From Magnetospirillum fulvum MGU-K5 (lineage in GTDB: Bacteria; Pseudomonadota; Alphaproteobacteria; Rhodospirillales; Magnetospirillaceae): DNA of 42,265 bases. Shown one piece after another: positions 1-2,989 of the stretch. Position 1 is the stretch's first letter; each line of letters begins with the position of its first letter. The translations under genes were made by a program, and so were the position numbers. The notes beneath the pieces were generated by a model. The model was given only the letters and a program-made list of their open reading frames with translations, was not told the origin of the DNA and did not search any database. The DNA lies in NCBI RefSeq assembly GCF_000442515.1, contig NZ_AQPH01000026.1, positions 1 through 42,265 of the forward strand. Reading direction: 5' to 3'.

Positions 1-285
1 GGGAATGCGGCGGTCGTCCTGGCTGGGCGCCGCCCACTGGTCCAGTTGGGTCTTGGATACGCGGCGGCCCAGCAGATTAGACATGGCCTCGGCCACCGCC
101 TCGCGCCGAAGCGGGGCGGTGGGGCGGCGGGCGGCGTCGTCCAGGGTGGTCGCCACCGCGTCGCGCATGGCGCGGTCGAAATCCTCGGCGAGGGCCGGGG
201 CGGTGGTGGCGTTGGCGGGCTGGGCGATGAAGAAGCCAAATTCGCCCTGGCGGGGGTCCGGTTGGCTGCCCTTGCGCTTGCTCAT
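1..285 (-). CDS. Mu-like prophage early protein, truncated by window edge
   Basis: Ninety-five codons are readable, from an ATG at 285 to the left edge, with no stop. The start overlaps the stop of the upstream Ner-like gene as ATGA, so the two are probably translationally coupled. The visible protein is soluble, with a charged N-terminus and then a helical stretch containing RREAVAEAMSNLLGRRVSKT and QLDQWAAPSQDDRRIP. I associate that type of segment with small proteins near the transposase genes of Mu-like phages, but cannot name the family securely. The gene sits where transposase A or a small accessory gene would follow ner. Its function is unknown. Confidence 0.6.
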   Translation of the reverse strand, partial: MSKRKGSQPDPRQGEFGFFIAQPANATTAPALAEDFDRAMRDAVATTLDDAARRPTAPLRREAVAEAMSNLLGRRVSKTQLDQWAAPSQDDRRIP

Positions 286-670: not shown

Positions 671-688
671 AATGCCACTTTCGGCATT
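671..688. promoter_or_regulatory. Candidate operator palindrome in the ner/repressor control region
   Basis: AATGCC (671-676) and GGCATT (683-688) form a perfect 6-base inverted repeat with a 6-base spacer. AATGCC recurs at 725-730, just before the repressor start. Spaced half-sites between divergent phage regulatory genes are what operators for Ner or the c repressor would look like. Binding is inferred only. Confidence 0.35.
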
Positions 689-755
689 CATGCAAGTCAG
701 TTTTGTCGTTTCGCGCTCGCTAGGAATGCCGATTGTGACGAGGTGTCGGAAAATT

Positions 756-1844
756 ATGGTGAATCAATGCGATAGTGAGAGCGCGAAAAGCGCGAAAGAG
801 GCAGCGTCTGATTTCGCGGACGGAGAAAAGGAGCGCGAAATTGGCAGGCGTCTCGCTGCTGCTGTCAAAAATGCCGGGGGGAATAAGGCTGTTTCCGCAA
901 AAAGTGGCGTTCCACTTCGTACCCTTGACAGGTTGCTGGCCGGTCAGGAGCCAAAAGTCAGCCATCTGGTGCAGCTTTCCGACGCCTGTGGGGTTTCGCT
1001 TGATTGGCTGGCAACCGGCAGGGAAGCGCCAAACGCCTCGACGGTTGGCGTCGAGGCTCGGCTGAAGGAAATCATGGCGACGCTGGAGAATGAGGAGGCG
1101 CCGATTTCCGCTGATCGTTTGCAAACACGCCCCGACCTTGCGGCCCTGCGCGAGGAACTGTTCGCTCTATCTGCGCGGGATGATCTCGCCGATAGCGAGC
1201 GAGGCTTTGCCGATCTGCTGTTGCGGTTGGTGTTCAACGATGCGGCGGCGGCCGAGCGTCAGAGGCAGCGGGAAGGGCGCATATTTGCGCGGTTGCGCAA
1301 CTCGGCTACCGTTTTCAAAATGGCTGGCGAGGTTGTCGGATGGGAGCCTCCCCCCGCCTTTGGCCAAGCACTCCGCACCATCTTCTTTAATTACGACGTT
1401 TTGCTTGAAGACGCAGTGTCTCTGTTGGATGCACTAAAAACCGATCTTGAAAAAAATAGCTTTCTGAGGGGATCTATGATTACTGTTCTTGCCGGTGATT
1501 TTAAAAAAGACGGCGTTGCCGTGTTCAAAAAAGCTCTGGGCGGCTTAGGAAAGCCCACCCATCTCGTCTTGCCGGTAGGCTTCATGAAATCTGAGAAGAT
1601 TGCCCTTGGCGACATTATGGGGGTGGCACCCGTGCAAGAAGCCGGCCTGAATGCCGCTGGCGCTGTGGCCGGTGGCTTGGTGTTCGGCGCTGTCGGTGCC
1701 GTCGCGGGCGCCCTGGTGGGCAGCGGCGCGGTGGTGGAACTGAAGTTCCGCGATGGGCGCAAGGCGCTTGTTCGGTGCGGTCGCTCGGAGCTTACGGTGT
1801 TGACTGCGGCGGCCTATGAAAACCAGCCTACGCAGGCTGTCTAA
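756..1844 (+). CDS. Mu-like phage repressor with HTH and glycine-zipper C-terminus
   Basis: A protein of 362 aa from the ATG at 756; in-frame starts exist upstream to 672. Residues about 25-90 form an XRE/CI-type helix-turn-helix (NKAVSAKSGVPLRTLDRLLA, then LSDACGVSLDWLATGRE), as in prophage repressors of transposable phages. The middle (about 95-250) is helical and charged. The C-terminus has no LexA/S24 peptidase Ser-Lys motif. Instead it has a beta-rich stretch (THLVLPVGF, IALGDIMGVAPV), a glycine-zipper hydrophobic segment (AAGAVAGGLVFGAVGAVAGA) and VELKFRDGRKALVRC. That combination resembles small PH-like/glycine-zipper domains. The gene faces ner, points to the phage end, and its stop lies inside the first TTTTAGACAG repeat. 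The sequence is locally A/T-richer than its neighbours, consistent with transfer. Confidence 0.75.
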   Translation: MVNQCDSESAKSAKEAASDFADGEKEREIGRRLAAAVKNAGGNKAVSAKSGVPLRTLDRLLAGQEPKVSHLVQLSDACGVSLDWLATGREAPNASTVGVEARLKEIMATLENEEAPISADRLQTRPDLAALREELFALSARDDLADSERGFADLLLRLVFNDAAAAERQRQREGRIFARLRNSATVFKMAGEVVGWEPPPAFGQALRTIFFNYDVLLEDAVSLLDALKTDLEKNSFLRGSMITVLAGDFKKDGVAVFKKALGGLGKPTHLVLPVGFMKSEKIALGDIMGVAPVQEAGLNAAGAVAGGLVFGAVGAVAGALVGSGAVVELKFRDGRKALVRCGRSELTVLTAAAYENQPTQAV

Positions 1845-2016
1845 AAGCGTGCGCCGATCATCCGTTTTCGCAGGCGGCGCTGTCTAAAATCCGTTTCGGG
1901 CCGCCGCGCCTTAAAAGGCCACTTCAATGGCGGTGCGCCCGGCGGTTTTCCTGGGGTTCCCCGTCTCATGGTGTCGCAAGGTGTCTCGCAGTATCTCACC
2001 CTACGACTGTCTAAAA
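1837..2016 (-). repeat. Three direct repeats TTTTAGACAG, putative transposase-binding sites
   Basis: The 10-mer CTGTCTAAAA (minus strand TTTTAGACAG) occurs at 1837-1846, 1880-1889 and 2007-2016, all in the same orientation. The first and third are also preceded by CCTACG. Measured from the inferred phage end at 2033, the cores begin 18, 145 and 188 bases in. This follows the Mu left end, where one site is at the terminus and two more lie close together roughly 100 bases inward. The first repeat overlaps the repressor stop codon. A weaker CTGTCTA occurs at 2090-2096, outside the inferred end. Confidence 0.65.
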
Positions 2017-2131
2017 CCCTTCACTTGATTACACCGATATCGTCCTCCGCCTCTTGTCGCGCGAATCCCGGTTCATTGTCTGGCTCGGGCTGTCTACCGA
2101 GCGGAGGCCATGAACAGCAGGATCGATCGGT

Positions 2132-2989
2132 ATGAGCAGAGCACCGACAGCTTGGTTCGACGTGCCGCTGACGGCGTTGGCACCGCTGGCCTGGGGGACG
2201 ACCTATTGGGTCACCACCGAACTGTTGCCGCCCGACCGGCCGTTGACCGCCGCCTTGCTGCGGGTGCTGCCGGTCGGTCTGATCCTGCTCGCGTTCTTCC
2301 GCCGTTTGCCGACCGGCCGCTGGCTGTGGCGGATGATGGTGTTGGGTGCGCTTAATATCGGAATATTCCAGGCGCTGCTGTTCGTCGCCGCCTACCGCCT
2401 GCCCGGCGGCGTCGCGGCGACTTTGGGGGCGGTGCAGCCGCTTCTGGTGATGCTGCTGGCCTGGCCGGTCTTGGCGATGAAGCCGGGTCCGCGTGGGCTG
2501 ATCGCGGGCGTCGCCGGTTTGTTGGGGGTCGCGATGCTGGTTCTCACTCCCTCGGCCCGGCTTGATGGGATCGGAATTGCCGCCGCCCTGGTCGGCGCCG
2601 GCTGCATGGCGGTCGGCACCGTGCTGACCCGTAAATGGGCTCCGCCGGTTCCATTGATGCTGTTTACCGCCTGGCAATTGGTTGCGGGAGGTCTGTTGTT
2701 GCTGCCGGTCGCCCTGCTGGTCGAACCGGCGCTGCCACCTTTGTCGTCGGCCAACATCGCGGGCTATCTCTATCTCGGTATTGTCGGCGCGGCGCTGTCC
2801 TATGCCCTGTGGTTCCGGGGCATCGAGCGGCTTCAACCCGGCGCGCTGGCAACGCTGGGGCTGCTCAGTCCAGTCTCGGCGACGGTGCTGGGCTGGGTGG
2901 CGCTGGGACAGGCGTTGGGGCCGGTTCAGGTCGCCGGGGCCGTCGTTGTCCTGGCGGCGGTGACGCTGGGCCAGAAGCGGGCGAAATAG
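2132..2989 (+). CDS. EamA/DMT-family exporter
   Basis: A protein of 285 aa with about ten hydrophobic segments in two EamA halves, the standard layout of drug/metabolite transporters of the inner membrane. The first half includes PLAWGTTYWVTTELLP and RVLPVGLILLAFF. The second begins around ALVGAGCMAVGTVLTRKW and ends with LLSPVSATVLGWVALGQAL. The substrate cannot be told from sequence. The start at 2132 is chosen because it keeps the first EamA helix; an ATG at 2110 has a better GGAGG but is in another frame. It is the first host gene beyond the prophage end, only about 100 bases away, so its native promoter may have been displaced. It runs tail to tail with the MotB-like gene. Confidence 0.85.
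   Translation: MSRAPTAWFDVPLTALAPLAWGTTYWVTTELLPPDRPLTAALLRVLPVGLILLAFFRRLPTGRWLWRMMVLGALNIGIFQALLFVAAYRLPGGVAATLGAVQPLLVMLLAWPVLAMKPGPRGLIAGVAGLLGVAMLVLTPSARLDGIGIAAALVGAGCMAVGTVLTRKWAPPVPLMLFTAWQLVAGGLLLLPVALLVEPALPPLSSANIAGYLYLGIVGAALSYALWFRGIERLQPGALATLGLLSPVSATVLGWVALGQALGPVQVAGAVVVLAAVTLGQKRAK

Follow-up and report, generated by a model that had tools for sequence, protein, structure and literature searches.

The window analysed here, a 42,265-nucleotide stretch of Magnetospirillum fulvum MGU-K5 that comprises one whole contig (NZ_AQPH01000026.1, hereafter C26), carries three direct copies of a 10-mer, TTTTAGACAG, just past a repressor-like gene, and the question is whether these repeats mark the left end of a Mu-like transposable phage. 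The three direct copies of the original prediction are confirmed: all are exact, lie on the minus strand, and begin 18, 145 and 188 bases inside a terminus at position 2033. One had been placed near the terminus and two about 130-170 bases inward, and the inner copies indeed lie 127 and 170 bases from the outermost. A repressor stop codon had also been claimed inside a repeat; the TAA of the open reading frame at 672-1844 falls within the innermost copy. The features of this end are, in window positions:

1 to 285, minus strand: early regulator gene, cut by the contig edge (phrog_2345 matches both pieces; the other half starts contig C64)
282 to 656, minus strand: Ner-type regulator, reading into the phage (PF13693, 2e-19; phrog_769, 8.4e-20)
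672 to 1844, plus strand: repressor-like gene (HTH_3; PF01381, 6e-6; phrog_3037, 2.7e-8), reading toward the left end
1837 to 1846, minus strand: L3, presumed transposase site, exact TTTTAGACAG, offset 188-197, overlapping the repressor stop codon
1880 to 1889, minus strand: L2, presumed transposase site, exact TTTTAGACAG, offset 145-154
1963 to 1996, minus strand: four [ACG]GA[CT] motifs in the spacer between L1 and L2, set exactly 10 bp apart
2007 to 2016, minus strand: L1, presumed transposase site, exact TTTTAGACAG, offset 18-27 from the terminus
2024 to 2033, minus strand: left terminus TGTAATCAAG, read inward from the first phage base at 2033; it begins TGTA, as the right end does
2034 to 2038, no strand: host CCGAT, the 5-bp target duplication, with its partner at C43:18398-18402
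2132 to 2989, plus strand: host EamA-type transporter gene beside the left end (PF00892, 2e-33), kept beside the empty site in genome G002

The repeats stand well above chance. With up to one mismatch, TTTTAGACAG has four matches in the window, whereas 100 shuffles average 0.60 and none reaches four. Exact copies number five in the 3.77-Mb genome: the three of the left end, one at C43:18442 in the phage right end, and one on C113, which stands alone there and was disregarded. At that density, the chance of two further same-strand copies within 190 nt of a given one is about 8e-9.

We place the boundary at 2033/2034 because of a 5-bp duplication and an empty site. CCGAT borders the phage on both outer flanks, and a genome of the same genus, G002, holds the uninterrupted site with CCGAT once; the joined host flanks match it in 490 of 521 alignment columns, with 3 gaps. 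The claimed TGTAATCAAG terminus is now fixed at 2033, running down to 2024. The checks that had been suggested, for a 5-base duplication just after 2033 and against a genome lacking the insertion, both came out in its favor.

The phage right end lies at C43:18403, where TGTAGCGGCGCGCGCGA is followed by R1, TTTTGGACGA, at offset 18, and by R2, an exact TTTTAGACAG, at offset 40, 22 bp further in. Inverted copies of the repeat had been expected at the right end, and these two inverted sites supply them. A second copy of the phage, with a MuA 97-99% identical, sits at another host place in genome G055; the stretch it shares with C43 starts precisely with the terminal T of the right end, in a record that carries no left end. 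In a 74% relative, G056, R1 and R2 read TTTCGGACAT and TTTCGGACAG, again at 18 and 40. The G056 record also has a second short transposase match upstream of the full gene (G056:C1:35605-35769; query 218-272, E 4.6e-12).

Decamers that abut a repressor gene, one of them overlapping its stop codon, might instead be regulatory operators or a host repeat, with the element boundary elsewhere. Yet one decamer copy sits in the right end, just where R2 should be; the boundary set by the duplication and the empty site is 17 bases beyond L1; and relatives keep the site offset. Unless G002 is misassembled, the right end, duplication and empty site rule this reading out, and we regard it as extremely improbable. 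The three repeats are almost certainly the left end of a Mu-type transposable prophage of the D3112/RcapMu kind.

The gene content agrees with this assignment. As the window is the entire contig, the phage runs off it at position 1, and the original prediction called for MuA and MuB homologues beyond that point; both are found on C64, the contig that holds the other half of the cut regulator gene. C64 encodes a MuA homologue (PF09299, 2.7e-18; PF02316, 4.5e-8; phrog_310, 1.3e-149), an AAA+ transposition protein, GemA, a portal (Portal_Mu), gpF (Phage_Mu_F) and Gp36, while C43 carries tail and baseplate families and then the right end. Judging by gene content, C26 would be joined to C64 and C64 to C43. 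The transposase is 681 aa from its likely start, with D255, D321 and E361 present in a frame without stops. The adjoining AAA+ protein is a MuB homologue (phrog_296, 5e-47; PF13401, 7.4e-14) that also matches TniB (PF05621, 3.6e-8). Thus a MuA-family DDE transposase with an adjoining AAA+ protein, a 5-bp duplication, Mu-type virion genes, and TG..CA ends with presumed transposase sites inverted left versus right occur together. Two of the phage proteins have further parts of note: the repressor frame extends into a long C-terminal part that includes a glycine-rich stretch, AAGAVAGGLVFGAVGAVAGALVG (window 1640-1740), whose one Pfam match is weak (C19orf12-like, 0.054), and the gpF-like head protein (L009 12751-13968, on C64) ends in a PBECR2 nuclease-like domain (PF18810, 1.1e-25).

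From these parts we infer a Mu-like course of transposition. The DDE transposase would bind L1, L2 and L3 (at 18, 145 and 188) together with R1 and R2 (at 18 and 40), pair the two ends and cut after the terminal CA; the ends would then be joined to target DNA with a 5-bp stagger, with help from the AAA+ MuB homologue. Because the repressor gene extends into the left end, its stop codon lies inside L3. The prophage may still be active. That its ends are genuine but it is now inactive seems unlikely to us: a 7.9-kb element in G002 without MuA exemplifies the decay of such elements, but here the transposase frame is free of stops and keeps its DDE residues, the AAA+ gene and all five sites are present, and a nearly identical phage occupies a second place in G055.

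The end architecture is shared with relatives, in part. L1 at offset 18 is common to our phage, G002, G049, G138, RcapMu, RcWaterboi and RR1-B. L2 and L3 start at 145 and 188 in our phage, 156 and 198 in G002, 146 and 189 in G049, and 101 and 143 in G138, and their distance is therefore 42-43 bp throughout. The G002 element is an independent one of 7,939 bp (L139 7893-15831, G002:C11); it has both sets of sites, L1-L3 and R1-R2, and is bordered by a 5-bp duplication of its own, TCTTG. It encodes a MuA-N-terminal-like protein, a late activator, a head protease, a head protein and a tape measure, and a search of its 7,939 bp for an A or B gene found none. It is either a deleted prophage or a non-autonomous element or satellite, and a deleted prophage explains it equally well.

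Left ends of the form TG-N15-site were found upstream of few MuA relatives. Among six with 43-53% identity, five gave no match (G019, G265, G208, G213 and G211), although in G019 and G213 the contig may break off before the end is reached; a left end was also looked for, and none found, in G001 (49% MuA). Neither D3112 nor DMS3 has ends that match the site pattern, and NC_031059 ends without an end-like sequence. A right end was sought in D3112, whose record does not start with TG; about 100 bp are missing according to the accessible text of PMC4378225. By these comparisons the end site is evidently not universal even among near relatives. The transposase of G707 (L223 15710-18004) is a distant phrog_310 member, 21% identical to ours over 270 aa, and goes with a right end almost the same as those of G012 and our phage. 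Candidate ends were rejected at several other loci. Double decamers at L116-L118 were set aside as Mu ends, being evenly repeated three or four times in L116 and L117 and present in two copies in L118, and TG-N15-site matches lacking a second site (L024, L055, L082 and two places in L118) were taken as chance.

Among named phages, the Rhodobacter phages RcapMu (NC_016165) and RcWaterboi (MW677528) offer a close parallel. Their transposase is 40% identical over 73% of the query, and they share the TGTAG terminus, L1 and R1 at 18, R2 at 40, and a repressor and Ner-type gene before the transposase; their sites, reading TTYCGGACG, differ in sequence from ours. The RcapMu record labels attL1, attR1 and attR2 as potential transposase sites, with one left site only, and unlike our phage RcapMu has extra genes between left end and repressor. 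Rhizobium phage RR1-B (NC_021557; transposase 42% identical over 74% of the query) has L1, R1 and R2 at 18, 18 and 40 with TTCTGGACA-type sites. The site family TTYYRGAC is common to our phage, RcapMu and RR1-B. In D3112 and DMS3, which infect Pseudomonas and belong to Casadabanvirus, the core of the transposase is 47.5% identical over 59% of the query; a TG terminus and a cI gene adjoining the left end are further points in common with our phage, but their end sequences depart from the site pattern.

Mu itself shares the TG..CA ends, the 5-bp duplication, a repressor reading toward the left end, and one outer and two inner left sites. Its left end has CGAAA cores at 22, 127 and 167, which we take to be L1-L3. 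It differs in site sequence and in L1-L2 distance (105, against 127 in our phage), and its repressor coding sequence ends at 339, whereas our L3 overlaps the repressor stop codon. Set beside these Mu positions, the offsets of our phage and its relatives describe the Mu layout with another site sequence. The L1/L2-L3 architecture with a different presumed binding sequence, as originally proposed, thus holds; at the same offset RcapMu, RcWaterboi and RR1-B have sites of which ours is a variant. This left end is genuine and of a familiar type, that of an RcapMu/D3112-type transposable phage with its own site variant, and it gives a base-accurate map of five end sites for a transposable phage in a lineage with few described phages.

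What is unusual is where the right ends lie. Our own is 63 nt behind the CCA of a tRNA-Arg(TCT) gene, and that of G055 is 149 nt behind tRNA-Arg(CCT); both known places of the phage, C43 and G055, are behind tRNA genes. We gathered right ends by sequence pattern, blind to tRNA. A first pattern found five places in 5 of 317 genomes of the order, against four matches in four genomes for its reversed control, and all five carry a TGTAGCG start that the pattern did not require. TGTAGNG with both sites, derived from our own right end, recovered relatives at 12 places in 8 of the 317 genomes with no reversed-control match, and matched 23 stretches in viral_contigs. With a third pattern, 10 viral_contigs stretches and four places in 3 of 385 genomes of the class were found. 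The sample (loci L140-L213) comprised 31 distinct two-site right ends with at least 200 nt outside, six shorter ones having been dropped; L179, without R2, and L183, a doubtful case, fail the two-site pattern and were left out. A tRNA was called where a T-arm, acceptor strand and CCA lay outside the end, pointing to it.

For ten of the 31 right ends, the 3' end of a tRNA is found 49-217 nt outside, always in the same orientation (G159, 49; L195, 55; our phage, 63; G040, 100; G012, 121; G707, 121; G251, 134; G055, 149; G704, 152; G433, 217), with varying distances, and the other 21 are not at a tRNA. The detector background, one match in 30,871 bases of more distant flank on both strands, predicts about 0.1 (0.09) against the ten seen (P about 1e-17), and the P is of the same order if 45-90 tRNA genes per genome are assumed. 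Antisense tRNA matches and matches just inside the ends both numbered 0 of 31. In G433 (L187, G433:C64), six right-end remnants are stacked in the same orientation behind a single tRNA-Thr, starting at 62, 141, 187, 217, 266 and 298 nt from it, as if the spot had been used repeatedly. The association also follows the base after GAC in the site: 10 of 17 ends in the A/G class lie at a tRNA versus 0 of 14 in the T class (Fisher 0.0005), a split made post hoc. In the G002 element, 162 nt behind a tRNA-Gly, it is the left end rather than the right that faces the tRNA.

One reading, whose chances we put at about even, is that part of this Mu-type family, with GAC-A/G sites, may be directed to DNA some 50-150 bp behind tRNA genes, mostly with the right end facing them, by a factor that acts by way of the MuB-type AAA+ protein in a Tn7-like manner. 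Since the transposase of G707 is distant from ours, proximity to tRNA genes is not confined to a single close MuA lineage. No match to P0001 at 1e-4 was obtained in G012, G040, G251, G433 or G159, but P0001 also misses the G707 transposase. The gene after B (phrog_2030) is predicted to form two winged-helix domains (pLDDT 77, pTM 0.50), and Foldseek returned mostly generic winged-helix matches to the model (best E 5.9e-4). It is present in our phage, G055, G056, G706, G138, G049, G707, G213, G211 and G019, and phmmer found none in four GAC-T-class records (G710, G715, G712 and G723). As a separator of the tRNA-adjacent phages it was rejected: G049 and G138 have the gene together with GAC-T ends, and therefore it does not separate the groups. 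No targeting factor was found, and we regard this gene as a candidate only.

Alternatively, insertion may be random and prophages behind tRNA genes may persist because they do least harm there. Mu enters tRNA leaders and tails while avoiding the mature tRNA sequence, according to the accessible text of PMC7350765, and 21 of the 31 right ends lie away from tRNA genes, both in keeping with such survival. We think it a doubtful though possible account: about 0.1 tRNA cases were expected and ten seen, the orientation is biased, since no antisense match occurs, six right ends are stacked at one tRNA in G433, and the GAC-T class shows none. Less likely again, islands with integrases may account for the pattern, site-specific elements having brought the right ends to tRNA attachment sites or captured them there. 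In five of the ten cases (G012, G040, G251, G704 and G159) a tRNA 3' fragment is indeed followed directly by a tyrosine integrase gene; but ARAGORN finds an intact tRNA gene in the other five (our phage, G055, G707, G433 and L195), the attachment fragment does not include the right end, the tRNAs are not the same in sequence, and our phage entered a syntenic gap cleanly, with a 5-bp duplication, which leaves this explanation quite improbable. The integrase-adjoining tRNA fragments are at L164, L166, L167, L224 and L205.

Directed insertion would resemble that of Tn7-like transposons that use tRNA sites, which share with our phage insertion behind tRNA genes, an AAA+ partner and 22-bp transposase sites; tRNA genes serve Tn7-like elements as attachment sites in the accessible text of PMC11406308. 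Ours differs in being a phage and in its loose insertion distance: where a Tn7-like element would keep a fixed distance from one attachment site, these ends range over 49-217 nt behind several different tRNA genes. No Pfam match to TniQ or TnsD was found in the three phage reading frames of the window or ten of C64. Titles and abstracts of the open literature searched gave no report of Mu-like phages inserting behind tRNA genes. Hotspots of D3112/DMS3 relatives lie near REP elements, those of Ab30 being 55-61 bp from REP, and the word tRNA is absent from the available text of that account (PMC5977238). In Citromicrobium, according to the accessible text of PMC12486242, Mu-like prophages have 5-bp duplications and integrase phages use tRNA sites.

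We consider the tRNA association to matter more than the end map. Textbooks present Mu as the example of near-random insertion and Tn7 as that of directed insertion, and in both an AAA+ protein chooses the targets. If the association does reflect targeting, a member of the Mu family with a preference for tRNA flanks would offer a natural intermediate in which to study the passage from random to directed target choice.

A smaller regularity concerns the spacer between L1 and L2, which in Mu is a bent, HU-bound region. The motif [ACG]GA[CT] was picked from our own phage and then scored in others, so that the chain of four at exact 10-bp spacing, reached in 7 of 1000 shuffles, is to be read with that choice in mind; the shuffles matching the chain number 0 for G002, 5 for G049 and 23 for phage Mu. 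No 10-bp-phased chain was found in the L1-L2 spacers of RcapMu, G138 or RR1-B, the last differing from our phage in this respect. Chains elsewhere lie at L139 7933-7976, L140 6690-6723 and L113 (phage Mu) 44-67. In steps of 10 bp, the motif offsets are 38, 48, 58 and 68 in our phage, 41 to 81 in G002, 39 to 69 in G049, and 44, 54 and 64 in Mu.
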